NCBI GenBank assembly: GCA_016841675.1
Contig: JAENYQ010000010.1
Span: 1 to 61,547, forward strand
Direction of reading: 5' to 3'
Source of the DNA: Desulfotomaculum sp.
GTDB taxonomy: Bacteria; Bacillota; Desulfotomaculia; Desulfotomaculales; Desulfallaceae
DNA: 61,547 bases
Shown here: piece by piece, positions 6,733 through 56,762 of the stretch
Layout: every line of letters starts with the position of its first letter
Numbering within the stretch: position 1 is the stretch's first letter
Notes under the pieces: generated by a model
Databases searched by the model: none
Told to the model about the DNA's origin: nothing
Seen by the model: only the letters and a program-made list of their open reading frames with translations
Translations under genes and position numbers: made by a program

Positions 6733-6769
6733 GGGGTCAGGCTCTTTAATAAGTTAAGATCCTGACCTC
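6733..6769. repeat. degenerate GGGGTCAGGC-type palindrome
   Basis: GGGGTCAGGCTCTT...AAGATCCTGACCTCC forms an imperfect hairpin and is a shortened relative of the 74-base palindrome at 23533-23606. It sits between convergent genes valS and the tusA-like gene and may end transcription. Confidence 0.6.
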
Positions 6770-10460: not shown

Positions 10461-10518
10461 GGTGCCAGGTGTTGCAAGTTGAAAATCGAAGATTTTACAA
10501 CTTGCAACACCTGGCACC
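10461..10518. repeat. GGTGCCAGGTG-type palindrome between feoA and feoB
   Basis: GGTGCCAGGTGTTGCAAGTT and its inverted copy form a nearly perfect 58-base hairpin with an ATCGAAGAT core. It occupies almost all of the feoA-feoB junction. A related palindrome is at 30223-30311. It could attenuate feoB relative to feoA or stabilise an mRNA end. Confidence 0.85.
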
Positions 10519-17521: not shown

Positions 17522-20275
17522 ATGGGACGAAAACAGATGGAAATAAAAACCAAATATATGCTGGCTACTGTAGTGCTGGTTTTCATTGTTTTACTGGTTA
17601 AAATCATTTTTCTTCAGTTTGTCCATACTGAACAGTTCCGCACCTTAGCCCGCAACAATTATATCCGCATTGTGCCGGTTTTTGCGCCCAGGGGTGAAAT
17701 TTTTGACCGCAGTGGCGAAAAAATGGTTACCAACCGGCCTATCTATACCGTTTCAATAAACGATATCAATTTTAAGGGTACTACCTACAGTGTGGTGCTG
17801 GAGCGAGTTGGGGCCGACAGCGTGCAAATGGCTGAACAAATGGCCCGGGTACTGGTCCGGGACCCCGAGTATCTCCGGCAGACCGGAGGCAATATTAAGG
17901 TGGACGGTGATCCCGCTGAGAATACGCGCTTGATTGAAGAAAAAATTAAAGAAAACGTGAGAAATAAAAAGACCGAGCTGGAAAATGGCCAGCCACTGGA
18001 ATTGGCTGTGGTATATGACCCGGCAGCTGCTGCTGCGCTGTCCGGTCAGCAGTGGGATGCTTACGGTATTCGGGTGGAGAAACAAACCGATATGTTAAGC
18101 CAGCTGGTTGCTATGTTGTTCCCCAAAGGGGTATTTGAGGAAGAAAGCAACTATGCCGTGGAACGCAGCATACGGGATGAAATTCGAGGTAAAAAGGCAT
18201 ATGAATCGGTGCTTGTCGCTGAGGACGTGCCGTTGGAGACGGTGGTGGAACTGCGGGAAAGGCAGTTAGAGCTGCCCGGTGTGGTGGTGGACATCCAACC
18301 AACCCGTGATTATCCCCATGATCAGCTGATGAGCCACGCTTTGGGTTACGTTCAGAATATAAAACCGGAACAGTACGAGCAGCACAAAGATGAAGGTTAC
18401 CTGATGAATGACCTGTACGGGCAGAACGGTTTGGAGTTGATCTTGGAGAGTTATCTAAGGGGAGAGAACGGGGCCCGGCAGGTAGAGGTGGACACCTATA
18501 ACCGCCCGGTGCGGGATCTGGGCATGAAGCAGCCCGTTCCCGGCAACGACCTGGTGCTGACCGTGGACCTGGAAGTTCAGAAGGCCGCGGAAAAAGCGTT
18601 GGCCGAAGGAGCCCAGCGGGCGCGAAACGCGGGTCACCTGAATGCCAATGCTGGCGCCGCAGTGGTGATGGACGTTAACACCGGGGCAGTGCTGGCCATG
18701 GCCAGTTACCCGTCTTACAATCCCGGGGTATTTGCCAACCTGACTACCCCCAAATGGCAGGAATTGCAGGAGAGTGGTGCACTGATAAACCGGGCCATGT
18801 CATTGTACCCACCGGGTTCCACTTTTAAGATGGTTACTGCCGCCGCCATACTGGAAAACAATGTGGTGGACCCCTCATACAGAATGCCCGACCCGGGCTA
18901 CTTCATGTTGGGCAGACGTTATAACGACTGGAAACCTGGCGGGCACGGCAGCGTGGATATGCTGGCGGCTATTCAATTTTCCTGCGACACTTATTTTTGG
19001 CAGTACGGGTACCTGGCCGGGGTGGAAGCCATAGCTCATTACGCCCGGGAATTTGGCCTGGGCCAGCTTACCGGTATTGGTCTACCCGGCGAAATGGCCG
19101 GTGCTGTACCCGACCCGGAGCATAAGTATGAGTTGGTCAAAAGCATGTTGATTAGGGATTATGACGATTTTGCCGGGGTACGTGAATTTAACCGCCAAAT
19201 AAAACAGATTGATGCGGAAATTCAAGAAACTGTCGACAACGCCGAAAAGCGCCGCCGGCTGGCCCAGCAAAAAAAAGAACTGGAAAGCGACCGGGACAAA
19301 GAACTTGCTGAACAGTTAAAGAAATACGACTGGGAGTTAAAGTGGCAGGCCTATGATACGCTGAATATGGCCATCGGCCAGGGGGATAACTGGTATACCC
19401 CGCTGCAGTTGGCGTCTTACGTGGCGGCCATTGCCAACGGGGGCACCCTTTACAAGCCTTATCTGGTGGATAAGATAATTGCACCCGACGGGGAGCAGCT
19501 TGAGGAATTTGACAAACAGGTCCGCCACAAAGTAGATATAAAACCGGAAAACCTGAAAATTATTCAGGAAGGAATGCACCTGGTTACGCTGCCGCCAATC
19601 GGCACGGCCGCAAGCGTATTTACAGGGTTTAAGCAAACAGCGGCGGCTAAAACCGGTACTGCCGAGGTCATGGATACTGCTGGCAACAAGAAAAGTAACC
19701 ACGCCCTGTTTGTTGCCTATGCACCCTATGAAAAGCCCGAAATTGCGGTGGCGGTAATTCTTGAGAGTGGGCATGCCGGCGCCAGTTTTGCCGGGCCAAT
19801 TGCCCGCAACATACTGGACGCCTATTTTGGTGAGGAAGCCAAAAGCCTGTTGCCGCCCGGGGAAGCGGAACAATTAGAAAACAGTGAACAGGACCAGGAA
19901 CCGGACCTTAACAACTGGCTGCAAATACATGAAGATACTCCTGCACTGGCCTGGCCGAGCTGGAATAAACACTCTGCCGGTGGTCAACAAGGTGAAGATG
20001 AGCGTTTCCGTTATTACGATACCAGGCTGAAACGCCAACAAGCCGCGCAGCAGGCTGTTACCATTCAGCAACCTACCGTGGTTCAGACTACGGTGCCGCC
20101 GCCGGACGAAACGCAGCAGCAGTCGGAACCGCAACTACCGGATGAAACGCCGCCGCCAGCGAACGGGGCGGCACCGGATGACGCCGAGTCGGGTGATCAG
20201 CAAACAGTGCCGTCGCCGGGCAACCAGCTTGAACCGGTGCCCGAGGAACTTGACGGGCATGTTAATACAGATTGA
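17522..20275 (+). CDS. mrdA: penicillin-binding protein 2 (elongation transpeptidase)
   Basis: A 917-residue class B PBP, well above the family's usual 600-700. One N-terminal helix (about residues 12-32), the pedestal domain (FAPRGEIFDRSG), then the transpeptidase with S433-TFK, S487-CD and K710-TGT motifs, all intact. Two additions are unusual: a charged coiled-coil insertion of about 60 residues (550-612) between the SCD and KTGT motifs, and a hydrophilic P/Q/E-rich tail of about 130 residues after the transpeptidase domain. It partners RodA in rod elongation. A second in-frame ATG at 17537 is also possible. Confidence 0.93.
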   Translation: MGRKQMEIKTKYMLATVVLVFIVLLVKIIFLQFVHTEQFRTLARNNYIRIVPVFAPRGEIFDRSGEKMVTNRPIYTVSINDINFKGTTYSVVLERVGADSVQMAEQMARVLVRDPEYLRQTGGNIKVDGDPAENTRLIEEKIKENVRNKKTELENGQPLELAVVYDPAAAAALSGQQWDAYGIRVEKQTDMLSQLVAMLFPKGVFEEESNYAVERSIRDEIRGKKAYESVLVAEDVPLETVVELRERQLELPGVVVDIQPTRDYPHDQLMSHALGYVQNIKPEQYEQHKDEGYLMNDLYGQNGLELILESYLRGENGARQVEVDTYNRPVRDLGMKQPVPGNDLVLTVDLEVQKAAEKALAEGAQRARNAGHLNANAGAAVVMDVNTGAVLAMASYPSYNPGVFANLTTPKWQELQESGALINRAMSLYPPGSTFKMVTAAAILENNVVDPSYRMPDPGYFMLGRRYNDWKPGGHGSVDMLAAIQFSCDTYFWQYGYLAGVEAIAHYAREFGLGQLTGIGLPGEMAGAVPDPEHKYELVKSMLIRDYDDFAGVREFNRQIKQIDAEIQETVDNAEKRRRLAQQKKELESDRDKELAEQLKKYDWELKWQAYDTLNMAIGQGDNWYTPLQLASYVAAIANGGTLYKPYLVDKIIAPDGEQLEEFDKQVRHKVDIKPENLKIIQEGMHLVTLPPIGTAASVFTGFKQTAAAKTGTAEVMDTAGNKKSNHALFVAYAPYEKPEIAVAVILESGHAGASFAGPIARNILDAYFGEEAKSLLPPGEAEQLENSEQDQEPDLNNWLQIHEDTPALAWPSWNKHSAGGQQGEDERFRYYDTRLKRQQAAQQAVTIQQPTVVQTTVPPPDETQQQSEPQLPDETPPPANGAAPDDAESGDQQTVPSPGNQLEPVPEELDGHVNTD

Positions 20276-20302
20276 GAGTCTTATAGTAATCTGTTAACTT
20301 GC

Positions 20303-20360
20303 AAAAAAGGGGACAGGCTGCTTTTTTTGGTTTTTGAAAAAAGATGCCTGTCCCCTTTTT
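20303..20360. repeat. GGGGACAGGC-type palindrome
   Basis: AAAAAGGGGACAGGCTGCTT pairs with AAGATGCCTGTCCCCTTTTT around a TTTGGTTTTTGAAA core. A nearly identical copy is at 31359-31415. Located between mrdA and minC, it can form a strong hairpin ending in a T-tract and may terminate the mre-mrdA transcript. Confidence 0.85.
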
Positions 20361-20489
20361 GTTTTTTAACCGCTCTAGCAGGATTTGGTTATAGGCTGTA
20401 GAATTATTTAACTTTAAATGCAAAAGACGGTTAACCTATAAGATTTGGTGTGTAGGTTTGCGGGTTGTTTGCAGCGGGGGGGAATAAGT

Positions 20490-20915
20490 TTGGTTGCTGA
20501 TTGGGCTGGTGACAATCTGGTGCGTTTACCCGGCAGGGGAGGAAGGGAACCGGAGGATATGGCAGACGACAATACAATTATGGTTCAGCGCACCCTGCGT
20601 TCCGGGCAGTCGCTGCAATTTGAAGGTAACGTGGTGATCCTGGGTGACGTTAACCCGGGCGCGGAAGTGGTCGCTACCGGTAATGTGGTGGTGATGGGCT
20701 CCTTGCGCGGCGTGGTGCACGCGGGAGCCGAGGGCGACAGTAGCGCCGCCGTTTATGCTTTTCGTTTACAGCCAACCCAGCTGCGTATTGCCAACCGGAT
20801 TACCCGCGCTCCGGACGGGGAGCAGTCCTTTTCCACCACCCCCGAGGTGGCCAGGATCAGGGACGGTATGGTTGTCATCGAGTCTTTTCAGACCGGACCG
20901 GAACGCCAGGGATAA
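20490..20915 (+). CDS. minC: MinC C-terminal domain protein (short form)
   Basis: A 141-residue protein consisting essentially of the MinC C-terminal beta-helix: FEGNVVILGDVNPGAEVVA, GNVVVMGSLRGVVHAGA and AFRLQPTQLRIA are unmistakable. That domain binds MinD and dimerises. The ~100-residue N-terminal domain, which antagonises FtsZ in E. coli and B. subtilis, is missing; only 40-odd polar residues precede the beta-helix, and the 214 bases back to mrdA contain a palindrome and no such domain. TTG 20490 is chosen for GGGGGG 7 bases upstream; TTG 20445 would add 15 residues without changing this. First gene of minCDE. Confidence 0.88.
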   Translation: MVADWAGDNLVRLPGRGGREPEDMADDNTIMVQRTLRSGQSLQFEGNVVILGDVNPGAEVVATGNVVVMGSLRGVVHAGAEGDSSAAVYAFRLQPTQLRIANRITRAPDGEQSFSTTPEVARIRDGMVVIESFQTGPERQG

Positions 20916-20963
20916 ATGCGATATGCTCACATGTAAAAGCGCAAAAGGGAGGAAAATTAACAA

Positions 20964-21755
20964 ATGGGAGAAGTAATCGTCGTTACTTCGGGCAAGGGTG
21001 GTGTGGGGAAAACAACTACCTCTGCCAACCTGGGAGCCGGCCTGGCCTCAGCTGGCAGTCGGGTATGCCTGATTGACGCGGATATTGGACTGCGTAACCT
21101 GGACGTGGTTATGGGTCTGGAAAACCGGATTGTTTACGACCTGGTGGATGTAACCAGCGGCAACTGCTCTTTCAGGAAAGCGCTAATCAAGGACAAACGT
21201 TTTGATAACCTGTTTTTGATGCCTGCCGCCCAGACCAAGGACAAGACCGCAGTAAACCCGGCTCAAATGGAAGCTCTGTGTAGTGAAATTAAAGATGACT
21301 TTGACTACGTGCTTATTGACTGCCCGGCAGGTATTGAACAGGGGTTTCGCAACGCCATTGCCGGTGCCGACCAGGCGGTGGTGGTAACCACTCCCGAAGT
21401 ATCAGCGGTGCGTGACGCCGACCGGATTATCGGTCTTTTGGAAAAAGAAGACCTGCGTGAGCCTAAGTTAATTGTGAACCGGATGCGGCACCAGATGGTC
21501 AAGCACGGGGACATGATGAGTATTGATGATATTATTGAGATCCTGGCGATAGACCTTTTGGGTGTGGTTCCCGAGGATGAGCTGGTCGTGGTAAGCACTA
21601 ATCGCGGCGAGATGGTGGTGCTTAATAACAATTCGAAATCCGGCCAGGCTTACCGCAACATAGTACGCCGAATTAGAGGCGAAGATGTGCCCATGATGAA
21701 CCTGGAAGACAGCGGGTTGTTTGACAAAATACGCCGTATTATCGGACTGAAGTGA
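20964..21755 (+). CDS. minD: septum site-determining ATPase MinD
   Basis: A 263-residue deviant-Walker-A ATPase (GKGGVGKTT at residues 10-18, with the signature lysine), switch I/II regions (DADIGLRNLD, LIDCPAGIE) and a C-terminal amphipathic membrane-targeting helix (GLFDKIRRIIGLK). It recruits MinC to the membrane and is displaced by MinE, encoded next. ATG behind GGGAGG. Confidence 0.97.
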   Translation: MGEVIVVTSGKGGVGKTTTSANLGAGLASAGSRVCLIDADIGLRNLDVVMGLENRIVYDLVDVTSGNCSFRKALIKDKRFDNLFLMPAAQTKDKTAVNPAQMEALCSEIKDDFDYVLIDCPAGIEQGFRNAIAGADQAVVVTTPEVSAVRDADRIIGLLEKEDLREPKLIVNRMRHQMVKHGDMMSIDDIIEILAIDLLGVVPEDELVVVSTNRGEMVVLNNNSKSGQAYRNIVRRIRGEDVPMMNLEDSGLFDKIRRIIGLK

Positions 21756-21774
21756 AACCAAGGGGGGATGCGCG

Positions 21775-22056
21775 GTGCTGGATTTTATCAACCGGATTTT
21801 CGGCCGGGAAAGCTCGTCCAGCAAAAACGTGGCCAAGGAACGGTTGCGCCTAGTGCTTGTCCATGACCGGGCTGGTGTTTCGCCGGAACTTTTGGAGTCG
21901 TTAAAGGCCGATTTAATCAATGTTATTTCCAATTACATGGAAATAGACAAGGATGGCCTGGAGGTTTCCTTGGATAGCTCGGAAAACCAGGTGGCTCTGG
22001 TGGCTAACATTCCGGTCAAGAAAATGAAGAGAAAGTTCCAAACCGAGAGCGCCTGA
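21775..22056 (+). CDS. minE: cell division topological specificity factor MinE
   Basis: A 93-residue protein. The N-terminal amphipathic segment (LDFINRIFG) and the MinD-activating strand (RLRLVLVHDR) are followed by the dimerising C-terminal domain (LKADLINVISNYM, LEVSLD). It stimulates MinD ATPase and drives Min oscillation or bipolar gradients. GTG start behind GGGGGG; 19 bases after minD. A terminator follows at 22082. Confidence 0.95.
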   Translation: MLDFINRIFGRESSSSKNVAKERLRLVLVHDRAGVSPELLESLKADLINVISNYMEIDKDGLEVSLDSSENQVALVANIPVKKMKRKFQTESA

Positions 22057-22081
22057 TCGCCGGAGGCGTTCAGGCAATTGG

Positions 22082-22112
22082 GCCGGTAGCTTTATTTTAC
22101 CGGCTTTTTTTG
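22082..22112 (+). terminator. terminator of the min operon
   Basis: GCCGGTA (22082-22088) pairs with TACCGGC (22098-22104), followed by seven T residues. Confidence 0.85.
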
Positions 22113-22139
22113 TGTCTGATTCTGATATATAATTAACTT

Positions 22140-22255
22140 TGTGTAACTGTCCTGAAAATAGACTTTAGGGATTGTCATCCTGAGCGTTAGCGAAGGATCT
22201 TATCTTTTAAGGATTCTTTACTTTGTTTAGAATGACAATTAAACTTTTCTAACTG
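22140..22255. repeat. dispersed hairpin repeat
   Basis: CTGAAAATAGACTTTAGG-GATTGTCATCCTGAGCGTTAGC...GAATGACAATTAAAC. The same CCTGAAAATAGACTTTAGG lead-in recurs at 53902-53920 followed by TTGTCATCCTGAG, so lead-in and hairpin travel together. Non-coding, between minE and rodA. Confidence 0.7.
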
Positions 22256-22327
22256 CCTAAACAGTAACAAATTTGCAACTAAAAAAAGTCTTTCATTATT
22301 TTGTTGGACTCGCGGGCGGTGATTATT

Positions 22328-23521
22328 TTGGGCACTAGGCGCCTGGTGAAGAGCCTCGACCTGACCTTGATTGGAACCACTCTAATCATTGTGATGTTCG
22401 GGCTGGTTATCGTGGGCAGCGCCAGCACCGATTTCAGCTGGCTGAAACAATTGGGGCTGGATATGGACAAGCTGCAGAATTCTAATGTACTGCAGCGTTT
22501 GTTATGGATGAAAAAGGAATATTTAAACAAACAGTTTACCTGGTTCCTGTTGGGTATTGCGGCGGCTGCCGCAGTAATATATATACCTTATGAAGACTGG
22601 CGCAACTACACCAAACACTTGTACGTAATTAACCTGGGCATGCTTGGTGCAGTGCTGGTCCTGGGGCACACCGCCATGGGTGCGGAGCGCTGGATTAACA
22701 TTGGGCCATTTGTGTTCCAGCCTTCTGAATTTGCCAAAATTATTATTATCATTACCATGGCTGATTTCTTGGCCAACCGAGAAGGACGTCTGAGAAATTT
22801 TAAGGAACTGGTGCCCTGTTTTGTCTTTGTGGGTGTGCCATTGCTTTTGATTATGGCGCAGCCCGACCTGGGTACATCGCTGGTGTTTGTAGCGGTTTTG
22901 TTCAGTATGCTATTCATGGCCAGTTCACGGACGCCCCTGGTGGTGGGCATTTTTACCGCCGGCCTGGCTGCTGCAGTGGGTTTGGTGTGGTCACATTTGA
23001 AGTTCGGCACCTGGATGCCGCTGCATGAGTACCAGCTCAAGCGGTTGATTATTTTTATCGACCCCTGGTCAGACATTCAGGGAGCGGGTTATCACGTCAT
23101 CCAGTCCCAGATTGCCATCGGGTCCAGCGGTTTTTGGGGCAAAGGGCTGTTATGCGGCACGCAGAGTTTTTTGGAGTTTTTGCCCATCAGACACACCGAT
23201 TTTATCTTTTCTGTGCTGGCGGAAGAGCTTGGCTTTTTGGGTGCCTTGGTGCTTCTAACACTGTACGGAGTGTTCCTCTACCGGGCCATCCGTATTGCCG
23301 CCGAAGCCAAGGATACTTACGGTTCTCTGCTGGCCACCGGGGTAACCGGTATGATTACTTTTCACATCCTGGTTAACATCGGCATGACCGTCTCTATTAT
23401 GCCCATTACCGGTCTGCCGCTGCCGCTGTTCAGCTACGGGGGCAGCAGTATGATCACCAATATGATGGCCATCGGCATATTGCTAAACGTCCATCTGCGC
23501 AGACAAAAGATAATTTTTTAA
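22328..23521 (+). CDS. rodA: RodA/FtsW-family peptidoglycan glycosyltransferase
   Basis: A roughly 397-residue SEDS protein with about ten membrane helices. Hallmarks: GAERWINIGPFVFQPSEFAK, DLGTSLVFVAVL and the C-terminal GLPLPLFSYGGSSM. The position after mreBCD-mrdA-min favours RodA, the glycosyltransferase partner of PBP2, over FtsW. TTG 22328 is chosen because GGGCGGTG lies 8 bases upstream; the frame stays open to TTG 22301 but that codon has no ribosome-binding site. Confidence 0.92.
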   Translation: MGTRRLVKSLDLTLIGTTLIIVMFGLVIVGSASTDFSWLKQLGLDMDKLQNSNVLQRLLWMKKEYLNKQFTWFLLGIAAAAAVIYIPYEDWRNYTKHLYVINLGMLGAVLVLGHTAMGAERWINIGPFVFQPSEFAKIIIIITMADFLANREGRLRNFKELVPCFVFVGVPLLLIMAQPDLGTSLVFVAVLFSMLFMASSRTPLVVGIFTAGLAAAVGLVWSHLKFGTWMPLHEYQLKRLIIFIDPWSDIQGAGYHVIQSQIAIGSSGFWGKGLLCGTQSFLEFLPIRHTDFIFSVLAEELGFLGALVLLTLYGVFLYRAIRIAAEAKDTYGSLLATGVTGMITFHILVNIGMTVSIMPITGLPLPLFSYGGSSMITNMMAIGILLNVHLRRQKIIF

Positions 23522-23532
23522 AAAGGTAGAAA

Positions 23533-23606
23533 GGGGTCAGGCTCTTAACTTATTAACTTATTGGCTGAACTTCGCCAATAAGTTAATAAGTTAAGAGCCT
23601 GACCCC
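23533..23606. repeat. GGGGTCAGGCTC-type palindrome
   Basis: GGGGTCAGGCTCTTAACTTA and its inverted complement form a nearly perfect 74-base hairpin with a GGCTGAACTTCGCC core. It follows rodA by 12 bases and could act as a terminator or mRNA-end stabiliser. Confidence 0.9.
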
Positions 23607-23688
23607 ATAATTATATAATTGTAATATTTTAACAACTACCTCCATATATATTGATTACACAGCTATGAATACTTATGGGGGGATTGCC

Positions 23689-24462
23689 GTGTTTAAGTGG
23701 GACAAGTTGCCTCGTTTGGGGGCCGGGAAAAAAAAGTATAGTGATGATTGGACTAATTACTACCAGACCGCTGCCGGACAGGGGAAAACACCTTCTTACA
23801 GGCAGCGGGGCGGCCGGAACAGGTTTTTTAGAATCTCAGCAGTGCTGGTGGTCCTGGCTGTTTTACTGGTGGCTCGCCAAGTGCCCCATCCGGTAGGTGA
23901 TCAGGTACGGGATAATCTGCGTTATCTCTTAACTGCCGAATGGAATTTCCAACCGCTGCTGGACAAGTCCGTTCAACTGGCTGCCCAGATGGTTAACTGG
24001 GACAACCCTGTGTTGCACGGTACGCCGGGTACCGGATTAGAACCCGTAGCCGGGCCGGGGTTGACTAATGATGGTTTGAGTGTTCCCGTTTCCGGCCAGG
24101 TGGTGCAGCAATACGGCTGGGTGCAATCACCTGTGGACGGCCTGGAAAGGTTCCATTCCGGGATTGACATCAGCGCACCGCCAGGCGAAGCGGTGGCTGC
24201 CGCCAAAGACGGCCGGGTGGAGAAAGTATCCGAAGACACAGTGCTTGGCCGCTATATTTTGATCAGTCATGGTGAAGGCAATTACACCCTTTACGGAGGG
24301 GTAACGGACATAACCGTTGAGGAAGGGCAGGATGTTCGGGCCGGGCAAGTAATGGCAGTGGTGGGTGACGGTGAGGTGCCTGGTGGGGGCTTGCACTTTG
24401 AAGTACGGGAGGACGGCAAGCTGGTTGACCCCTTGGAACGATTAAGCATTAAGGGTAATTGA
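23689..24462 (+). CDS. SpoIVFA-like M23/LytM-domain membrane protein
   Basis: A 257-residue protein with a basic N-terminus, one membrane helix (about residues 46-66) and a C-terminal LytM (M23) domain. The first zinc motif is kept (HSGID), but the second, normally HxH, reads GLHFEV with the first histidine replaced by glycine, so peptidase activity is unlikely. Pairing with the M50 protease gene 13 bases downstream makes SpoIVFA, the regulator of the SpoIVFB sporulation protease, the best match. GTG 23689 is chosen for GGGGGG 7 bases upstream. Confidence 0.75.
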   Translation: MFKWDKLPRLGAGKKKYSDDWTNYYQTAAGQGKTPSYRQRGGRNRFFRISAVLVVLAVLLVARQVPHPVGDQVRDNLRYLLTAEWNFQPLLDKSVQLAAQMVNWDNPVLHGTPGTGLEPVAGPGLTNDGLSVPVSGQVVQQYGWVQSPVDGLERFHSGIDISAPPGEAVAAAKDGRVEKVSEDTVLGRYILISHGEGNYTLYGGVTDITVEEGQDVRAGQVMAVVGDGEVPGGGLHFEVREDGKLVDPLERLSIKGN

Positions 24463-24475
24463 CGGGGGTGACGCG

Positions 24476-25351
24476 ATGCGATTGGGGCGTTTTTGGGGCA
24501 TTGAGTATTCGCTGAATCCTTTTTTTCTTGCTTTGCTTGGTCTGTTCTTTGTTGCCGGTGTCCTGGACCGGGGGTTGATTGCTTTCGGTGTGGTGCTGGT
24601 GCATGAAACATCCCATGCACTGGTGGCCAAACGACTTGGGGTGCCAGTTGAAGAGGTGGAGCTATTGCCCTTCGGGGGAGTGGCCCGGACGGGTGTCGAA
24701 CTTTCGGTGCACCCGGTGCGGGAGATATACGTAGCCGCTGCCGGGCCGGCCAGCAACCTGGCGCTTTTCTCCCTGGGTGTGGCTTTAAAAAATTACGGGA
24801 TCTGGCACGAAGGGCTGGGTCCGTTTTTTTTACAGTGCAACCTGCTGGTGGCTGTTTTTAATCTGCTGCCCGGGTTACCCCTGGATGGGGGGCATATTTA
24901 CAGGGCTCTACGCGCCCAGCGGGACGGCATTGCCAAGGCTGCATATAAAGCCGCCGGACTGGGGCAGTTAATTGCCCTTGTGGTTATGTTTGCCGGTGCG
25001 GCGGGGATATGGGCAGGGTATTGCGGGCTGGATATCCCGGTTACCGCCCTATTCCTGTTTTACGCTGCCACCCGGGAGCGGCAGGAATCACCACACCTTT
25101 TTTTGCGTATGCTCAGGTTTAAGAATGAAGAACTTAACCGGGAGGGCGTACTGCCTGTAAAGCAGTTGGCGGCAGTTGAAAATATACCGTTGGGGATGCT
25201 GGTGCGACCTTTCGTACCCCGACGGTACCATCTGGTGACTGTGCTGGACAGTCGGCACCGCTATCTTGGTACGGTAACCGAAACCGCGGTGATCGATGCA
25301 TTGCTGCAAAGTGGCGCAAGCACCAGGGTAGGGGATTTATTGGACGGGTAA
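24476..25351 (+). CDS. SpoIVFB-like M50 site-2 protease
   Basis: A 291-residue intramembrane zinc metalloprotease. The HExxH motif is HETSH (about residues 43-47) and the third ligand is in NLLPGLPLDGG. A C-terminal CBS-like segment (about 225-290) fits SpoIVFB, which cleaves pro-sigma-K in the mother cell. The upstream SpoIVFA-like gene supports this. ATG lies behind GGGGGTGACGCG. If the organism sporulates, this pair should be expressed late. Confidence 0.88.
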   Translation: MRLGRFWGIEYSLNPFFLALLGLFFVAGVLDRGLIAFGVVLVHETSHALVAKRLGVPVEEVELLPFGGVARTGVELSVHPVREIYVAAAGPASNLALFSLGVALKNYGIWHEGLGPFFLQCNLLVAVFNLLPGLPLDGGHIYRALRAQRDGIAKAAYKAAGLGQLIALVVMFAGAAGIWAGYCGLDIPVTALFLFYAATRERQESPHLFLRMLRFKNEELNREGVLPVKQLAAVENIPLGMLVRPFVPRRYHLVTVLDSRHRYLGTVTETAVIDALLQSGASTRVGDLLDG

Positions 25352-25368
25352 CAGCGGGGGGAGAACTG

Positions 25369-25672
25369 TCATCTAGGAGCGTTAGCGAAGGAGCTAAATT
25401 CTTCACTTCGTTCAGAATTACCATGCGTATCCGCACCACAATAATAATACAAATTTAATGGTTGTTATTTAACTTGACAAAATTATTCACTCTGTTCAAA
25501 TTAAGCTTGTCATCCTGAGCGCAGCGAAGGATCTGGTTTTAAGATTCTTCGCTGCGCTCAGAATGACAGATTCGTTGTATTCATAGCAATGACAGGCTTA
25601 AAAGGTTCTTCAATTCTTGTATTCATAGCAATGACACGACGCTGTACCAATTACTGAGTTAATGTCATGTAA
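25369..25672 (-). repeat. composite MITE-like repeat, inverted orientation
   Basis: Three modules in minus orientation: a hairpin at 25369-25440 (related to 3270-3355), a hairpin at 25507-25570 (GTCATCCTGAGCGCAGCGAA ... GAATGACA), almost identical to 54017-54080, and a segment 25575-25672 carrying TTCATAGCAATGACA twice and ending in the left terminal repeat of the 227-bp element (TTACTGAGTTAATGTCATGT). The matching opposite terminal repeat is absent, so this looks like a rearranged or nested insertion. Confidence 0.75.
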
Positions 25673-25735
25673 TATTTTTAGAAAGAAGTAGTCAGTTATG
25701 GGGGACATATTCCCGGACATTTTTATTTTGATATA

Positions 25736-25776
25736 AATCTGAATTCTGACTCCTGAATTCTGAATTCTGACTACTT
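25736..25776. repeat. GAATTCTGACTCCT simple tandem repeat
   Basis: Short tandem heptamer-like units (CTGAATT/CTGACTC) as GAATTCTGACTCCTGAATTC. Similar tracts lie upstream of valS (3650-3700), mreC (15990-16045) and rsfS (36778-36835). Confidence 0.75.
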
Positions 25777-25852
25777 AAGATAATACTCAGACTTGCTTTT
25801 TCCGGCGATTAATGGTATTTATCATGGGAAGCAAAAATATGGAGGATAAACC

Positions 25853-27733
25853 ATGGACAAACGGCTGGAAAAAACTTTGCGACGGGTACAGAAACCGGGT
25901 CGGTACACAGGTGGGGAATGGAACGCGGTGTACAAGGACTGGCCAAATACCGACGTGAAGATGGCTTTTGCGTTTCCCGATGTTTATGAGGTGGGTATGA
26001 GCCACCTGGGTTTACAAATTATTTACCACGCGGTGAACAGCCGTGATGATGCTTTATTGGAACGGGTTTTTGCTCCCTGGGCGGACATGGAGAAGCAGAT
26101 GCGTGAAACGGGATTGCCGTTATTCAGCCTGGAATCCCGGCGACCACTCCGCGATTTTGATATTTTAGGCTTCACATTACAATATGAGTTGAGTTTCACC
26201 AACATACTAAACATGCTGGATCTGGCCGGGATCCCGGTGCGGCGGGATGACCGGGCCGCCGACGTGTATCCGCTGGTTGTGGCCGGCGGTCCCTGTGCCT
26301 TTAATCCAGAACCTTTGGCTGATTTTATTGATGTTTTTATTATCGGCGAGGGGGAAGATGCGGTAAACGACCTGCTGGACACCTACCTGGAATCGCAGCG
26401 CCGGGGCGAGGACCGTCGGCAATTACTGCTCAGGATGGCCGGAATTAGTGGTTTTTACGTGCCTTCGTTGTACCGGGTGGAGTATAATGATAGGGGAAAA
26501 CTGGAAGCGGTAAAGCCTGCTGTTGCCGAAGCGCCTGCGGTGGTCAATAAAAGAGTTGTGACTGACCTGAGCGAGGCGGTATTCCCCACTCGGCCGCTGG
26601 TGCCCGTCATCGAAGCGGTGCATAACCGCGCCATGCTTGAAGTGCAGCGAGGCTGTACCCGCGGCTGCCGGTTCTGCCAGGCCGGTGTAATTTACCGGCC
26701 GGTACGTGAAAAAGAGCCCCAAACCCTGGTCCGCCAGGCTGAAGAAATAATCCACAACACCGGCTGGAATGAGATTTCCCTTTCTTCGCTCAGTACTTCG
26801 GATTACTCCCAAATTAAGTCCCTGATCAGTGAGCTCACCGGGAGTCACACTGAAGCGGGTGTGAACATATCACTTCCTTCACTCAGGGTAGACGCTTTTT
26901 CGGTGGATCTGGCCAAAGAGGTACAAAAAGTGCGCCGCTCCAGTCTTACTTTCGCTCCGGAGGCGGGAACCCAGAGACTGCGAGACGTGATTAACAAGGG
27001 CGTCACCGAGAATAATCTGATGGAAGCGGTGAGCGCTGCATTTGCCGGCGGCTGGCAGGCCGTAAAACTGTACTTTATGATTGGGCTGCCCACTGAGACT
27101 GACGTCGACCTGGAGGGAATTGCCGACCTGGCCCGCCGGGTCTTGGATAAGGGACGCAGTCTATCTCGTTCCCCGGGGCGAATTAAGGTGACCGTAAGCG
27201 TATCATCCTTCGTGCCTAAATCACACACGCCGTTTCAATGGGAACCCCAGGATAATATGGATGAACTTAAGCGTAAGCAGGCCTTTCTAAAGCAGCGTAT
27301 GCGTGGCCGGGGGCTGGTTTTCAACTATCACGACCCGGAAGGCAGTTTTCTGGAGGCTGTTTTTTCCCGCGGTGATAGAAGGTTAGCTGCTGTTCTGGAA
27401 GCTGCCTGGCGGGCAGGCAGTCGCTTTGACGGCTGGTCGGAATTTTTCGATTTCGGACGCTGGATGAAAGCTTTTGAGGCAACCGGTATTGATCCGGTAG
27501 GTTACGCCCACCGCCGTTTTGAGTATGGCGAAATTATGCCCTGGGATCATATCGGGGCCGGAATGAGCAAAAAATATCTGGAGCGTGAACACCGCCGTGC
27601 CCTGGATGGGGAGATCACTCCGGACTGCCGTGCCGGCAATTGCCCGGGCTGCGGGCTGTGCCCCACCCTGGAGGTTAAACCGAGACTGGCAGGGGGTGAA
27701 ACGATTGCACCGTTACATGATTCGCTACAGTAA
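25853..27733 (+). CDS. TIGR03960-family radical SAM protein
   Basis: A 626-residue protein: N-terminal cobalamin-binding-like (Rossmann) region with AFPDVYEVGMSHLGLQ, then a radical SAM barrel with the CxxxCxxC cluster (RGCTRGCRFCQ, about residues 262-272), and a C-terminal Cys cluster (CRAGNCPGCGLC). TIGR03960 members in Clostridia and Bacteroidetes occur just before a DUF2344 protein and rng, as here; the two are fused in some genomes. Their reaction is unknown, and an RNA- or ribosome-related role has been inferred from location. ATG behind ATGGAGGATAAACC. Confidence 0.9.
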   Translation: MDKRLEKTLRRVQKPGRYTGGEWNAVYKDWPNTDVKMAFAFPDVYEVGMSHLGLQIIYHAVNSRDDALLERVFAPWADMEKQMRETGLPLFSLESRRPLRDFDILGFTLQYELSFTNILNMLDLAGIPVRRDDRAADVYPLVVAGGPCAFNPEPLADFIDVFIIGEGEDAVNDLLDTYLESQRRGEDRRQLLLRMAGISGFYVPSLYRVEYNDRGKLEAVKPAVAEAPAVVNKRVVTDLSEAVFPTRPLVPVIEAVHNRAMLEVQRGCTRGCRFCQAGVIYRPVREKEPQTLVRQAEEIIHNTGWNEISLSSLSTSDYSQIKSLISELTGSHTEAGVNISLPSLRVDAFSVDLAKEVQKVRRSSLTFAPEAGTQRLRDVINKGVTENNLMEAVSAAFAGGWQAVKLYFMIGLPTETDVDLEGIADLARRVLDKGRSLSRSPGRIKVTVSVSSFVPKSHTPFQWEPQDNMDELKRKQAFLKQRMRGRGLVFNYHDPEGSFLEAVFSRGDRRLAAVLEAAWRAGSRFDGWSEFFDFGRWMKAFEATGIDPVGYAHRRFEYGEIMPWDHIGAGMSKKYLEREHRRALDGEITPDCRAGNCPGCGLCPTLEVKPRLAGGETIAPLHDSLQ

Positions 27734-28376
27734 AAAGGGACCGGCCCGTTATACTGCTCATCTGGACTTGATGCGGGAACTGGAACGGAGTATGCGTCGG
27801 GCCCACCTGCCGGTGGCCTTTTCAGAGGGTTTTAACCCTCATCTCAAGTTGAGCATTGCGGCACCGCTTCCCGTGGGTACCGAGGGTCTGGCCGAACTGG
27901 CCGAGGTTGAAATGACCAGGCCTGTGGAACCCGACCAGATGGCCGAAAGTCTTAATGCTGTCCTGCCGCCCGGATTAAAGGTGTGGGAAGTGGCTGAAAT
28001 TAGCAGTACCAATCCAGCGTTGATGGCTGCTCTGGATCAGGCGGCTTACATTGTGCAACTGGACGGGGAAGATTTACCGGTCCCGCTGCCCGATGCTGCT
28101 ATAGAAGAATTTCTGGCTCGGGAGTGTGTGGAAGTCCGGCGGCGTGGTAAGGACGGTAAGGAAAAAGTTCGGGACATCAGGCCCGGCATCATAAAAATAG
28201 AAGCATTGCCTGGTGACGACGGCCTTGGCCTGCGTATGGAATTAAAAACCGGCAGTGTGATGAATGTTCGGCCCGCCGAGGCGGTAACGGCGCTGTTGGA
28301 ACACGCTGGCATAGAAATTGATTCCGCTGACCTGGAGATAACCAGGACCGGGTTGTTCCTGGTCAAAAAAAAATAG
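27705..28376 (+). CDS. TIGR03936/DUF2344 protein, radical SAM partner
   Basis: A 223-residue protein containing IRYSKKGPARYTAHLDLMR and AFSEGFNPHLKLS, the DUF2344 hallmarks. It overlaps the 3' end of the radical SAM gene by 29 bases, indicating translational coupling. TTG 27705 is chosen for AGGGGGTG 6 bases upstream; ATG 27717 is possible. In other genomes it is the C-terminal half of a fused radical SAM protein, so it probably forms a complex with the upstream product. Confidence 0.88.
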   Translation: MHRYMIRYSKKGPARYTAHLDLMRELERSMRRAHLPVAFSEGFNPHLKLSIAAPLPVGTEGLAELAEVEMTRPVEPDQMAESLNAVLPPGLKVWEVAEISSTNPALMAALDQAAYIVQLDGEDLPVPLPDAAIEEFLARECVEVRRRGKDGKEKVRDIRPGIIKIEALPGDDGLGLRMELKTGSVMNVRPAEAVTALLEHAGIEIDSADLEITRTGLFLVKKK

Positions 28377-28524
28377 CTTAATTAATGGCTTAAAAAATGG
28401 CAACTGGAAAAAAAAGCTTATTAATGCAGAAAAAATTTTACCAACAGCCAGGATAAGGGTTATAATCATAATTAGAAGTTTAAATATTTAAAATAAAAGC
28501 TTATTGACCAAGGCAGATGATAAT

Positions 28525-30216
28525 ATGTTTAAAGAAATATTGATTAATGTAGGCGAAGAAGAAACTAGAGTCGCCGTACTGGAGAACCGTATCCCGGTGG
28601 AGATGAATATTGAACGCTCGCCTAATCAGAGGCTGGTGGGTAATATTTACAAGGGCCGGGTAGAAAACGTGCTGCCCGGCATGCAGGCCGCCTTTGTGGA
28701 TATAGGTCTGGAAAAAAACTCGTTCCTTTATATTGAGGATGCCATCCCCGACCGCAATGCAGAGCCGGGGCACGGGCAGGGTGCGGCCGTGGGTGCAAAT
28801 ATCTGCGATATACTTAAGCAGGGACAAGATCTGATTGTACAGATCGTTAAAGAGCCCATCGGCACCAAGGGGGCCCGGGTGACCACCCATATTACTTTAC
28901 CGGGGCGTTACCTGGTGCTAATGCCTACCGTAGATTATATCGGCATCTCCAGACGTATTGAAGATGAACATGAAAGAGACCGACTCAGGGATATGGCGTC
29001 GCGGACCAAGCCCCGCGGCATGGGCGTAATTGTACGTACTGTGGCCGAAAGGGTGGCTGAGGAAGAACTGGCCGTTGACGTTAATATGCTTACTAACCTG
29101 TGGCGTAAGATTATGAACCGCTCCAGCCACGGGTCGGTGCCAAACCTGCTGCACCGCGACCTGGAATTGGTACAGCGCATACTGCGGGACACTTTTACTT
29201 CCGATGTGGACCGGCTCACCATTGACTCCCGGTACGAATACGAAAAAATATTAGATTTATTGGATATCGTGGGACCGTCTCTGAAGGTTAAAGTATTTCT
29301 TGAAGAGCGGGACAATATTTTTGAAGATCACCATATCGAAGCCGAACTGGAAAAGGCCCTTAAACGCAAGGTATGGTTGCGATGCGGCGGTTATATCGTC
29401 ATCGATCAGGCCGAGGCCTTAAATGCTATTGACGTGAACACCGGCAAGTATGTGGGCAGCACAAACCTGGAGGATACTGTCCTGAAAACCAATCTGGAGG
29501 CGGCGGTGGAAATCGCCCGCCAGTTGCGTTTGCGCAATATCGGAGGCATTATAATAATTGACTTTATTGATATGACCCTAGAGGAGCACCGCCGGCAGGT
29601 TTTGGATGTGTTGGATGAAGAGATACGCAAGGACAAAACCAAAATTAATATTCTGGGGATCACCCAACTGGGTCTGGTAGAGATGACCAGGAAAAAGGTT
29701 CGTCCCAGCCTGGCCGAGGTGTTGCAAAAAGCCTGTCCGTACTGTGAGGGCCGGGGAAAGGTGCTCTCCGAGGAAACGGTGGGTATTAACATTAAACAGC
29801 AGATCTACCAACTGTCCAGGCAAACTGGCGCTGAGACTATTCTAGTGGAAGCTAACCCGCTGGTGGCCGCCAGATTAATCGGCAGCGGCGGCGCCAACCT
29901 GCGGGAACTGGAGAGTCGGACCGGTAAAAACCTATACATCAGGGGCACTGCCGAGCACCATATTGAAGAGGTGGCCATGCGTCCTCTGTACGACCAGTCC
30001 GATATCAATGCCCATGTACTGCCCGTCAAGCCCGGTCAGATACTGGATGTCAGAGTGGAAGAGCCGCATGCAAACAACACTAACGATGGCATCGCCCGGG
30101 TGAACGGTTTCATACTGGATATTGAAGGTGCCGGCTCACTGGTGGGTAACACAGTAGCCATTGAGGTAAACAAAGTATACCGTACTTACGCCAAGGCCAA
30201 GCTGCTCAAGGCTTAG
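28525..30216 (+). CDS. rng: ribonuclease G/E family protein
   Basis: A 563-residue endoribonuclease. An S1 domain (YKGRVENVLPGMQAAFVDIG, about residues 40-60) is followed by the DNase I-like catalytic core with AIDVNTGK (first catalytic Asp) and IIDFIDM (second), and the zinc-link CPYCEGRG that dimerises RNase G. After the usual end there are about 100 extra residues with a TRAM-like beta segment. ATG 28525 is chosen because TTG 28504 has no ribosome-binding site. It sits before rplU-rpmA, the usual arrangement. Confidence 0.93.
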   Translation: MFKEILINVGEEETRVAVLENRIPVEMNIERSPNQRLVGNIYKGRVENVLPGMQAAFVDIGLEKNSFLYIEDAIPDRNAEPGHGQGAAVGANICDILKQGQDLIVQIVKEPIGTKGARVTTHITLPGRYLVLMPTVDYIGISRRIEDEHERDRLRDMASRTKPRGMGVIVRTVAERVAEEELAVDVNMLTNLWRKIMNRSSHGSVPNLLHRDLELVQRILRDTFTSDVDRLTIDSRYEYEKILDLLDIVGPSLKVKVFLEERDNIFEDHHIEAELEKALKRKVWLRCGGYIVIDQAEALNAIDVNTGKYVGSTNLEDTVLKTNLEAAVEIARQLRLRNIGGIIIIDFIDMTLEEHRRQVLDVLDEEIRKDKTKINILGITQLGLVEMTRKKVRPSLAEVLQKACPYCEGRGKVLSEETVGINIKQQIYQLSRQTGAETILVEANPLVAARLIGSGGANLRELESRTGKNLYIRGTAEHHIEEVAMRPLYDQSDINAHVLPVKPGQILDVRVEEPHANNTNDGIARVNGFILDIEGAGSLVGNTVAIEVNKVYRTYAKAKLLKA

Positions 30217-30222
30217 AAAAAC

Positions 30223-30311
30223 GGTGCCAGGTGTTGTTAGTTGATAGATGCCGGGTGTTGCAAGTTGAAAGTTGCGCAGTTTGCAGCTTTCAACTTGCAA
30301 CACCCGGCATC
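30223..30311. repeat. GGTGCCAGGTG/GATGCCGGGTG palindrome
   Basis: A full hairpin at 30247-30311 (GATGCCGGGTGTTGCAAGTT and its inverse) preceded by a partial, diverged copy (30223-30244). Same family as 10461-10518. It lies between rng and the rplU promoter. Confidence 0.85.
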
Positions 30312-30387
30312 AAAGCCTACCACTACTTTTCTTAGAGAGCACAAACTGTATAAAATATGGAGAAAACAACTTGCAACGCACCAAGTC

Positions 30388-30415: not shown

Positions 30416-30424
30416 GTTTTATTG

Positions 30425-30530: not shown

Positions 30531-30540
30531 GGGTTAACTA

Positions 30541-30906
30541 TTGTACGCTATTATTGAAACCGGCGGTAAACAATACCGCGTGAACGAGGGAGACACACTG
30601 TTCATTGAAAAGCTGCCCGCTGATGTTGGTGAAACCTATACCGTGGACCGGGTGCTGGCTTTGGAAAATGAAGGCCAATTGCAGGTAGGTACTCCGCTGA
30701 TAGAGGGTGCCAAGGTTTTATTCAAGGTAGAGAAACACGGCAAAGATAAAAAGATTATCGTTTATAAGTACAAGGCCAAGAAAAATTATCGGCGCAAAAA
30801 GGGCCACCGCCAGCCATTTACCAAAGTCGTGGTGGAAAAAATAGAGGTTAATGGAATGGGGACACCCCTCCGTTTAAGCAAAGGGGACACACCTCTTGCG
30901 GAGTAA
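30541..30906 (+). CDS. rplU: 50S ribosomal protein L21
   Basis: A 121-residue L21. [11 protein letters not shown] at the start and [17 protein letters not shown] near the C-terminus are diagnostic. The normal protein ends about residue 103 (KVVVEKIEV); the last 16 or so residues ([16 protein letters not shown]) are encoded by a repeat containing two GGGGACACMCCTC units, so the repeat has replaced the original stop. TTG start behind AAAGGGGGTT. Confidence 0.96.
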
Positions 30907-30914
30907 TGTCCCAA
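30855..30914. repeat. GGGGACACACCTC-type repeat inside the rplU 3' end
   Basis: ATGGGGACACCCCTCC and AAGGGGACACACCTCTTGCG followed by AATGTCCCAAC. The same family occurs at 33648-33692, 35716-35808 and 40384-40425. Here it overlaps the last codons and stop of rplU. Confidence 0.75.
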
Positions 30915-31358: not shown

Positions 31359-31415
31359 AAAAAGGGGACAGGCTGCTTTTTTCGGTTTTTGAAAAAAGAT
31401 GCCTGTCCCCTTTTT
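31359..31415. repeat. GGGGACAGGC-type palindrome, second copy
   Basis: AAAAAGGGGACAGGCTGCTT ... AAGATGCCTGTCCCCTTTTT, differing from 20303-20360 only in the loop area. Located 20 bases after a normal terminator. Confidence 0.85.
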
Positions 31416-33636: not shown

Positions 33637-34803
33637 ATGGATATAAGGAAAGGGGACACACCTCAAAACAAGGAAAAGGAGGAATGTCCCCAATTGAGGA
33701 AATTCAGCCCCATCAAGCGGCTGGTGATCAAGGTGGGCTCCAGTTCGCTCACCTATGCCACTGGTAAGCTGAACATTGAACAAATAGAGAAACTGGTGCG
33801 TCAAATGGCAGACCTGCACAACCGTGGCCTGGATGTACTGTTGGTCACTTCGGGCGCTGTGGGTGCAGGTCTGGGCAAACTGGGTTTGGATAAAAAACGG
33901 CGTACCATGCCTGAAAAGCAGGCCGCCGCCGCCATTGGTCAGGGCATGCTTTTACACATGTACGAAAAATTTTTTGCCGAATATGGTGTTGTAGTGGGGC
34001 AGGTGCTGCTAACCCGGGAGGATTTTGCCGACCGCCGCCGCTTCCTTAACGCCCGCAATACTTTGCAGGCCCTGCTTAATTTCAATATTGTTCCGGTAAT
34101 TAACGAGAATGATACCGTGGCAGTGGAAGAAATCAAACTGGGTGACAATGACAACTTGGCCGCCATGGTGGCCGGTCTGGTGGACGCTGAGCTATTAATT
34201 CTGCTGTCCGATGTAGATGGATTGTACGACGGCGAGCCTGGCATACCGGGTTCCAGCGTGCTGGGTGAAATATATGAAATAAACGAGGACATTGAATCCC
34301 TGGCGAAAGGCGCCGGCTCCAAGGTGGGCACCGGAGGAATGGTGACCAAAATTCAGGCTGCCCGGATTGCCATGCACTCGGGATTGGTAACAGTTATAGC
34401 CCGGACTTCAGAAAATGACGTGGTCCGCCGGATCGTGGCCGGGGAACCACTGGGCACCTCGTTTTGGCCTTCGGTCAGGCTGGTGCAGAAAAAGAAATGG
34501 ATTGCTTACGGGGCCACGGTATGTGGGCGAATCCACGTTGACGGGGGTGCGGTCCGGGCATTGCAAAAGGGCGGAAAAAGTCTGCTCCCCTCCGGAGTAA
34601 CGGCTGTCAACGGCGGTTTTGATGTGGGCAACACTGTTAGCATTGTTGACGCCAACGGCAAAGAAATCGCCCGGGGCATTGTGAACTACTGCGCTGTCGA
34701 TGTGGATAAAATAAAAGGCTGCAAAACCGGCGAGATAGCCGATATACTTGGCCACAAAGATTACGACGAAGTCATCCACCGCGACAATCTGGCCTTAGAA
34801 TAA
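33637..34803 (+). CDS. proB: glutamate 5-kinase
   Basis: A 388-residue enzyme: amino acid kinase domain (VIKVGSSSLT, TSGAVGAGLG, ENDTVAVEEIKLGDND) plus a C-terminal PUA domain (about residues 295-375). It phosphorylates glutamate, the first step of proline synthesis. From ATG 33637 the first 19 residues are encoded by a GGGGACACACCTC repeat; TTG 33694, behind AAAGGAGG, gives a normal N-terminus (LRKFSPIKRLVIKVG) and may be the native start. proA, usually next, is absent here. It follows obg by 12 bases. Confidence 0.94.
   Translation: MDIRKGDTPQNKEKEECPQLRKFSPIKRLVIKVGSSSLTYATGKLNIEQIEKLVRQMADLHNRGLDVLLVTSGAVGAGLGKLGLDKKRRTMPEKQAAAAIGQGMLLHMYEKFFAEYGVVVGQVLLTREDFADRRRFLNARNTLQALLNFNIVPVINENDTVAVEEIKLGDNDNLAAMVAGLVDAELLILLSDVDGLYDGEPGIPGSSVLGEIYEINEDIESLAKGAGSKVGTGGMVTKIQAARIAMHSGLVTVIARTSENDVVRRIVAGEPLGTSFWPSVRLVQKKKWIAYGATVCGRIHVDGGAVRALQKGGKSLLPSGVTAVNGGFDVGNTVSIVDANGKEIARGIVNYCAVDVDKIKGCKTGEIADILGHKDYDEVIHRDNLALE
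33648..33692. repeat. GGGGACACACCTC...GGAATGTCCCC repeat at proB start
   Basis: AAAGGGGACACACCTCAAAA followed by AAGGAGGAATGTCCCCAA. It lies inside the annotated 5' end of proB and also supplies the AAGGAGG that could serve the downstream TTG start. Confidence 0.7.
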
Positions 34804-35715: not shown

Positions 35716-35808
35716 AAGGGGATACACCTTCTAAAGGAAAGGGAATAAGAAAGGGACACCCCGCCCAATAATGAAATGGTGCAGGAATGTCCCCCATTAG
35801 AGGCTTGT
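35716..35808. repeat. GGGGAYACACC...GGAATGTCCCC repeat
   Basis: AAAAGGGGATACACCTTCTA, AAAGGGACACCCCGCCC and GCAGGAATGTCCCCCATT; three half-units of the family also found in rplU, proB and after leuS. Confidence 0.65.
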
Positions 35809-40359: not shown

Positions 40360-40425
40360 AAAGGGGCAGGTTCTTTTTTGCACCTTAATTTGGGGACATT
40401 CCTTCGCAAAAAGGGGTGTCCCCTT
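40360..40425. repeat. GGGGACATTCC/GGGGTGTCCCC repeat after leuS
   Basis: AAAAAGGGGCAGGTTCTTTT and TTGGGGACATTCCTTCGC ... AAAAAGGGGTGTCCCCTTTT. Mixed half-units of the REP-like families. The stretch from here to 40706 (280 bases) holds no gene I can support. Confidence 0.65.
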
Positions 40426-55483: not shown

Positions 55484-55556
55484 GGGGTCAGGCCCTGCGT
55501 AACTGCATAATTACATAAGTATTATGTGATTATGCAGTTACGCAGGGCCTGACCCC
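55484..55556. repeat. 73-base GGGGTCAGGCCCTG palindrome
   Basis: GGGGTCAGGCCCTGCGTAAC and the inverse form a nearly perfect hairpin over the full 73 bases, with ACATAAGTATTATGT at the centre. It begins 9 bases after hisG stops and can act as a terminator. Same outer core as 23533-23606, different inner sequence. Confidence 0.92.
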
Positions 55557-56761: not shown

Positions 56762-56762
56762 A

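Follow-up and report, generated by a model that had tools for sequence, protein, structure and literature searches.

Several families of long hairpins that resemble repetitive extragenic palindromic (REP) sequences, among them a palindrome at positions 23533 to 23606, lie in a stretch of 61,547 nucleotides from Desulfotomaculum sp. (contig JAENYQ010000010.1 of assembly GCA_016841675.1), here called the window. Palindromes of these families in the whole 3.84-Mb genome (G000, the own genome) were compared with those of a sister species of the same genus, Peptococcaceae bacterium BRH_c8a (G002; flanks 11.5% different), and the two arms were found mostly to change together at fixed sites between the two species. 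The following of paired arm change at sites shared with a sister species is new here. The best explanation, on balance a probable one although unproven, is that paired change is caused by arm templating, in which a hairpin forms and one arm serves as template for the other.

Arms of Shared Palindromes Mostly Change Together

Palindromes catalogued in the own genome numbered 38, of which 24 were compared with the sister. Nine of the 24 were found through flanks shared with a catalogued sister palindrome, and 15, drawn from the remaining 29, were sought by their flanks. The sister has a palindrome at the same junction, good or degenerate, at 16 of the 24 sites. Elsewhere, the sister site of L107 is rearranged and has cores, that of L116 is empty, and at L025, L109, L113 and L032a just one flank could be placed or the flanks lay over 1.3 kb from each other; the flank search gave no match in the sister for L029 and L115. 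At the place of L109, the sister has a different hairpin (L247, G002:C5:7240-7700) with a GGGGACGGTTC core beside the kept left flank.

At the first nine sites, one of which has two copies in the sister, 10 comparisons could be made. Of their arm columns, 254 were identical, 25 held symmetric substitutions, 6 held symmetric indels and 5 were asymmetric, and their flanks, alignable in 16 of 18 stretches, were mismatched at 344 of 2987 positions. Two palindromes of the window, at 23533 and 55484, occupy sites that are filled in both species, and at both the arms of the sister palindrome are symmetrically changed. A control consisting of all aligned non-REP hairpins of the window (34 in number) yielded 205 unchanged pairs, 1 symmetric change and 42 asymmetric ones, which separates the REP-like palindromes from other hairpins with a Fisher p of about 1.4e-13.

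The same behavior was seen in a test of all 16 sites, which took a single sister copy at the double site and at most 28 nt of each arm (416 positions per arm). Summed distances between the arms within a palindrome came to 1 edit in the own genome; the sister total was 26, to which two degenerate copies contributed 17. Distances between the species came to 75 edits for the left arms and 75 for the right arms. Arms that changed independently from a palindromic ancestor should give equal sums, and the sums found were 27 and 150 (binomial p about 7e-22, with edits treated as independent although several may stem from a single event). The nine sites had been recognized by cores kept in both species, a bias that favors paired arms; the other seven lacked a catalogued sister palindrome, so that their bias should run the opposite way, and they gave 0 + 22 edits within palindromes against 44 + 45 between species. 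Complementarity is also nearly complete within each genome, with unpaired interior arm positions amounting to 2 of 560 in the own genome (35 copies) and 6 of 384 in the sister (24 copies), and copies differ among themselves by 22% and 39%, respectively (ungapped). At L028, the core itself is changed on both sides (GGGGTTAGG / CCTAACCCC).

Preserved pairing would also be expected if the hairpin were under selection, as RNA or as a single-stranded substrate of a REP-associated tyrosine transposase (RAYT), and were restored by ordinary compensatory mutations (cf. Bertels and Rainey on Pseudomonas REPINs). Compensatory changes are described as common in REPIN hairpins, and tied to selection for hairpin capacity (PMC3116915). 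The few intermediates counted above speak against this account, as do the symmetric indels and the predominance of transversions over transitions. Transversions make up 17 of the 25 paired changes and 130 of the 344 flank changes (p = 0.005), which is at odds with stepwise repair via G-U pairs. Moreover, the sister keeps most arms paired without a close relative of L013, a RAYT of the own genome; its best matches to L013 are 36% identical. Hairpin selection thus appears possible but doubtful as the cause of paired change.

RAYT Genes and Dispersed Palindrome Families

The hairpin families are far above chance in the own genome, where the same pattern read backwards served as the control. GGGGWCAGGC-N30-60-GCCTGWCCCC occurs 36 times (0 reversed), GGGGWCA-N14-44-TGWCCCC 198 times (6 reversed) and GGTGCCAGGTG-N25-55-CACCTGGCACC 15 times (0 reversed); the copies listed begin GGGG(T/A)CA or GGTGCC, as the search patterns demanded. 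Palindromes of a GGGGACAGGGAC(T/C)TGTCTG type account for 14 of 43 listed in the sister, all on contig G002:C36, and the own genome has one such palindrome just upstream of the Y1 transposase L003 (G000:C152).

Matches to Y1_Tnp (PF01797) were found in 17 stretches of the own genome, all outside the window, in agreement with the initial annotation, which had reported no RAYT gene there. The domain was present in 9 of 9 proteins scanned, and an H-x-H motif in L006, L007, L008, L010, L011, L012, L013 and the sister's L084. The cut-off of the NCBIfam model REP_Tyr_transpos (80 bits) was passed by L013, L006, L010 and L084, with L008 (79.4 of 80 bits) and L012 (68.9) below it. L001-L003, which score highest against PF01797, may be of IS200 type, and L004 and L005 together make up a single IS200-like transposase gene that is broken by a TAG stop (G000:C4:17981-18339). 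A phmmer search (E 0.001) found no solved relative of L013.

Three RAYT genes have arms of window families as their own ends:

G000:C70:23989-24321, RAYT L013, ends of 34 nt with 1 mismatch (TAAGGGGGTCAGGCTCTTAACTTATTAACTTATT), equal to the arm of 23533
G000:C83:7995-8330, RAYT L006, perfect ends of 22 nt (AAAAAGGGGACAGGCTACTTTT), matching the outer arm of 20309 and close to the arms of 31364
G000:C154:11264-11593, RAYT L008, ends of 36 nt with 3 mismatches (GTGCCAGGTGTTGCAAGTT...), matching the outer arm of 10461

Terminal inverted repeats bearing GGGGWSAS flank L013 (GGGGTCAG), L006 (GGGGACAG), and L010 and the sister's L084 (GGGGTCAG). The ends of L008 do not have this form and start GGTGCCAG, and none were found at the remaining members of the 17 loci apart from partial repeats. 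L010 is placed between two GGGGTCAGGCC-type elements, and the ends of L084 fit the 55484 type (GCATAACT). The link between these palindromes and RAYTs, suggested in the initial annotation, is right, and both conditions named there as refuting it spoke for it: the genome has end-matching RAYTs, and palindrome occupancy varies between species (see below). The window's GGGGACAYWCC family has no assigned transposase, as no RAYT with such ends was found among the 17 loci within 1.5 kb on each side.

L084 is 61% identical to L010, though the ends of the two differ. By eye, a reading frame that looks like uvrC follows shortly downstream of each, the same one in both cases. A RAYT with a DnaA-C-like domain apparently occupies one uvrA-uvrC-like place in two genera (L010, L084 and L090; by eye), the uvrC side being seen for L010 and L084 and the uvrA side for L084 and L090. 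The ends at this place differ from genome to genome yet match each other about 1 kb apart, apparently a fixed RAYT locus whose ends evolve together. Similarly, the GGTGCCAGGTG-ended RAYTs L008, L080, L087 and L091 have, by eye, a similar gene neighborhood in four genomes, and their inner ends vary (GCAAGTT or GAAAG) but agree between both ends of each. The C-terminal domain of L010 is Bac_DnaA_C of Pfam, and that of L084 is DnaA-like by weak NCBIfam matches. The DnaA box is TT[AT]TNCACA (PMC6006769). That DnaA-box-like iterons (TTATGCAG) are the target of the DnaA-C-like domain is no more than an idea: the two occur together in L084, but the iterons of L010 are of another kind although its domain is the same. 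A set of 72 loci, of which 53 could be parsed, was too mixed for a test of this pairing.

Palindromes Probably Stay in Place While Their Arms Change

If the palindromes had been inserted independently at the same preferred target in both species, shared sites would not hold orthologous copies. The core sequences could serve as such targets, and the flank alignments contain gaps, with 79 extra nucleotides left of L019 in the own genome and about 730 right of L026 in the sister. Apart from these two gaps, the flanks resume 0-33 nt from the palindrome on each side at the nine sites, and at L018 and L023 (over its two sister copies) they resume at once on both sides. Centers, in addition, resemble each other more at orthologous sites than across other pairs of sites. 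Independent insertion is very improbable.

The centers were compared using the nearer of the two sister copies at the double site. At six sites of the TTAAC type, locus similarity as high as that observed was reached by 0.017 of all permutations, although two of the six score low, and at the GCATAAC-type sites the orthologous center was the best of 14 sister copies in 3 of 3 cases. This bears on a second alternative, in which RAYT activity cuts elements at their cores and swaps them for another copy, so that copies come to match the ends of the genome's own RAYT. Such turnover would account for the distribution of arm types. A 25-nt arm of the own type has 73 matches in the own genome, 57 of them exact (two of these being the ends of the L013 element itself), and 9 in the sister, all with at least 2 mismatches, while the CCTTAACTAATTAAC type has 13 matches in the sister (5 exact), including at orthologues of own-type sites, and 2 in the own genome. 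At L030, L104 and L111, the sister interiors are largely different between kept cores, as swapping would leave them. It appears that replacement or nesting also occurs at these three sites, L030 looking like one palindrome nested in another. For most sites, however, whole-element replacement is no explanation, since it would have erased the locus similarity that the centers keep; this similarity argues that the resident element was retained while its arms changed. The sister also has only two Y1-family matches, neither with TTAAC-type ends. Turnover is therefore improbable as the general cause of paired change.

Arm sequences vary little in a genome that has the matching RAYT and vary more in one that lacks it, a correlation between two genomes in which the second contrast is weak. 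One 27-nt arm is common to 26 of 30 TTAAC-type copies in the own genome, where L013 is present. The mean number of edits per 27-nt arm of this type is 0.59 in the own genome (RAYT present, 30 copies) and 5.31 in the sister (absent, 11 copies); for the GCATAAC type, it is 1.18 in the sister (present, 14 copies) and 2.00 in the own genome (absent, 4 copies). Classes were assigned by a sequence rule, and sister sites with unlike interiors as well as the degenerate L121 were left out.

Proposed Mechanism of Arm Templating

The palindrome is probably a non-autonomous element of the TIRYT/TIRtron kind, a fused pair of inverted ends (REPIN-like, or like a miniature inverted-repeat transposable element) that would be recognized by a RAYT encoded elsewhere in the chromosome. 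Its ends would be built of two modules, an outer core (GGGGWCAGG or GGTGCCAGGTG) and inner iterons of about 8 bp. The iterons would vary from one RAYT lineage to another, and the variable C-terminal domain may be what recognizes them. In a resident palindrome, hairpin folding of the strand would occasionally let one arm serve as template for the other. The simplest route would be polymerase template switching, either in the course of replication or when the RAYT processes single-stranded DNA. A mutation in a single arm would then be either erased or written into both arms, and the sequence would drift while complementarity stayed. Copying within a folded strand would produce paired substitutions, paired indels, rare unpaired intermediates and kept centers. 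In a bolder version, the RAYT, or its processing of single-stranded DNA, would rewrite dozens of fixed palindromes in place, holding their arms identical to its own ends without moving them and with their centers kept; after its loss, the arms would drift in step, each templating the other. This extension is tentative and rather unlikely. If it is true, the palindrome would be a self-correcting DNA form in which what evolves is the arm sequence and not the position.

Arm templating has to be set against several observations that weigh against it, beginning with the three sites of largely different interiors. Among the 10 comparisons, the spacer was clearly better aligned flipped in 2 and clearly unflipped in 3, with the rest tied or nearly so; spacer inversion was accordingly rejected as proof of template switching, 2/10 flipped against 3/10 unflipped being a hint only. 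Homogenization is not constant, since sister copies can be imperfect (8 and 9 edits between the arms of L108 and L121, and 3, 2 and 2 for L103, L104 and L110). Nor is arm equality universal, since the left and right ends of the GGGGACAYWCC family differ (CAC versus TTC in 8 of 8 distinct pattern-matching copies examined). The AT-rich arms may add to the excess of transversions, and terminators, first chosen as the control for selected hairpins, gave only 2 conserved cases in the window (1 in a stricter version), for which reason the control was widened to all aligned non-REP hairpins. Finally, the shared sites come from two genomes only, and their changes cannot be polarized.

When the arms of REP-like hairpins are perfectly complementary, it is tempting to conclude that an RNA or DNA structure is under selection. 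Should the arms template each other, however, mutation alone would produce the pairing, which would then by itself be no evidence of function. This would change what is inferred about terminators, REPINs and covariation-supported RNA structures in element-rich genomes. It would also connect each RAYT gene with the sequence of its palindromes in a way that can be tested, and offer a natural setting in which to measure bacterial template switching. Higgins and others, in 1988, reportedly asked in a title whether REP sequences evolve by gene conversion.

Palindromes of the Window and Their Neighbors

The palindromic elements of the window are as follows; all are unstranded except the lone arm at 30223:

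6733..6769, short degenerate copy of the TTAACTTATT type, 3' of a valyl-tRNA-synthetase-like gene (3956-6724)
10461..10518, palindrome of the GGTGCCAGGTG type, one of the genome's 15 perfect-core copies
20309..20355, palindrome of the GGGGACAGGC type with a T-rich tail, after a penicillin-binding-protein gene
23533..23606, perfect palindrome of the TTAACTTATT type, arms equal to the terminal repeats of RAYT L013
30223..30244, + strand, lone arm of the GGTGCCAGGTG type
30247..30311, palindrome of the GGTGCCAGGTG type with its core altered on both sides (GATGCCGGGTG / CACCCGGCATC)
30858..30912, GGGGACAYWCC-type pair (solo end at 30858, short hairpin 30883-30912), at the 3' end of the L21 reading frame
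31364..31410, another palindrome of the GGGGACAGGC type, sharing 98% identity with the 20309 copy across 65 nt
33652..33691, GGGGACACACC...GGAATGTCCCC hairpin, near the start of ORF 33637-34803
35718..35794, degenerate GGGGAYACACC-type element
40392..40423, GGGGACATTCC...GGTGTCCCC hairpin
55484..55556, palindrome of the GCATAACT type, arm type fitting the ends of the sister RAYT L084

The long hairpins with related cores that had been annotated at gene junctions are real, with small shifts in coordinates, and the 23533 palindrome is exactly as described. It consists of two 33-nt arms, 100% complementary, and an 8-nt loop. Its neighbors are an FtsW/RodA/SpoVE-family gene (22301-23521) on one side and an M23 peptidase gene (23665-24462) on the other. 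The hairpin at 55483-55557 has 36-nt arms that are 97% complementary and is placed between hisG (54600-55475) and a rhomboid-family gene (55683-56387). Other long hairpins extend over 20304-20360, 31358-31416 and 10459-10520. Copies are indeed present at 6733 and 30223, but the first is short and degenerate and the second is one arm, the full hairpin being at 30247-30311. Structure and dispersal are those of REPINs; intergenic position was judged for the window copies, of which the 33652 copy lies inside a mechanically called open reading frame (ORF 33637-34803, amino-acid-kinase, proB-like). Cores of the GGGGACAYWCC group are found at 30858/30883, 33652, about 35718 (degenerate) and 40392. 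This family (L033-L047 and the window copies) has mostly distinct left (GGGGACACACC) and right (GGGGACATTCC) ends; among the GGGGWCA matches listed, at least one copy (C42:58773) is symmetric, with CAC at both ends. A second, unrelated repeat system combines inverted pairs of the TGTCATYCTGAGCGCAGYGAARRATCT type with associated direct repeats of 239 nt and 89 nt:

window 3179-3357, 25507-25636, 37603-37845, 54017-54123 and 56759-57001, TGTCATYCTGAGCGCAGYGAARRATCT-type repeat system

The window is colinear with the sister, block by block, over 1395-40350 and 51834-60504, and 12 of its stretches were compared. Besides the two occupied sites, six have no palindrome at the sister site (20309, 30247, 30883, 31364, 33652 and 35718), 10461 corresponds to a GGTGCCAG remnant only, and 6733, 40392 and the weak 40583 could not be paired. 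The solo end at 30858 is kept in the sister without the 30883 hairpin, the 33652 hairpin is missing at this place in both relatives compared, and the 35718 element has no counterpart in the sister and a short related sequence in G001. Palindrome occupancy thus varies between related genomes, as the six of 12 stretches and the empty site of L116 illustrate. Long GGGGWCAGG palindromes were not found in G001 and G003, two assemblies of the same genus in many contigs, the latter 86% complete. About 730 bp with an extra open frame (L097, G002:C48:65758-66489) adjoin the sister orthologue of the 23533 palindrome.

A role as terminators, proposed for most copies, was not borne out. A consensus scan of positions 20001-36000 gave 23 terminator-like sites against 18.8 (sd 4.1) in shuffled sequence, no clear excess, and left out 23533, 20309, 30247 and 31364, with weak matches at 33652, 35718 and a GGGGACAT hairpin at 25699. 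The scan admitted loops of 3-8 nt and no mismatch except G-T, and because of these limits 20309 and 31364 can be missed. Both are followed by T-rich tails and may terminate transcription, to judge from their sequence; 23533 has no T run.

Relation to Known Systems

For the three families with a matching RAYT, the palindromes are very probably TIRYT-linked, REPIN-like elements. TIRYT/TIRtron, with GGGGWSAS ends, seems a more precise name than GTAG-type REP, judging by these ends. TIRYT genes, TIRtron elements and the GGGGWSAS consensus are named in PMC3733652; the group belongs mostly to TnpAREP subclass 2.1 (PMC6006769). As in that group, a Y1 gene lies here between GGGGWSAS inverted repeats, end families are moderately abundant and dispersed, often as dimers, and C-terminal domains are of the DnaA-C or helix-turn-helix kind. 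In contrast, more than one TIRYT lineage is present here and each lineage has a separate palindrome family, the GGGGWCAGGC copies are fused into nearly perfect palindromes some 50-80 nt long, and evolution at orthologous sites is followed, which goes unreported in the available text of PMC3733652. RAYTs are characterized as single-copy, vertically inherited genes in PMC8049555.

According to PMC3116915, REPINs resemble the palindromes described here in having two inverted ends and a spacer in one long hairpin, in their dispersal and RAYT association, and in interiors that are variable yet self-complementary. Their cores in Pseudomonas are the GI-GIII sequences, whereas the cores here are GGGGWCAGG or GGTGCCAGGTG. 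The transposases of IS200/IS605 belong, like RAYTs, to the Y1 (HUH) family; the IS200 model is matched only in L006, L008, L010 and L084, with 20-21.5 of 55 bits, compared with 79-86 of 80 bits for the RAYT model.

A search of the available literature found no relevant paper linking template switching to REP elements or REPINs, or compensatory and concerted evolution to REP elements, and the terms searched for on paired or concerted change were not found in PMC3686654. Template switching in other settings offers the closest parallel. It is reported to homogenize inverted-repeat arms and invert spacers (PMC8604942) and is argued to create and maintain perfect stems (PMC8794818). Those cases concern RNA genes and yeast coding DNA; as proposed for the palindromes described here, arms become alike by copying, several bases can change at once, and spacer inversion is possible.
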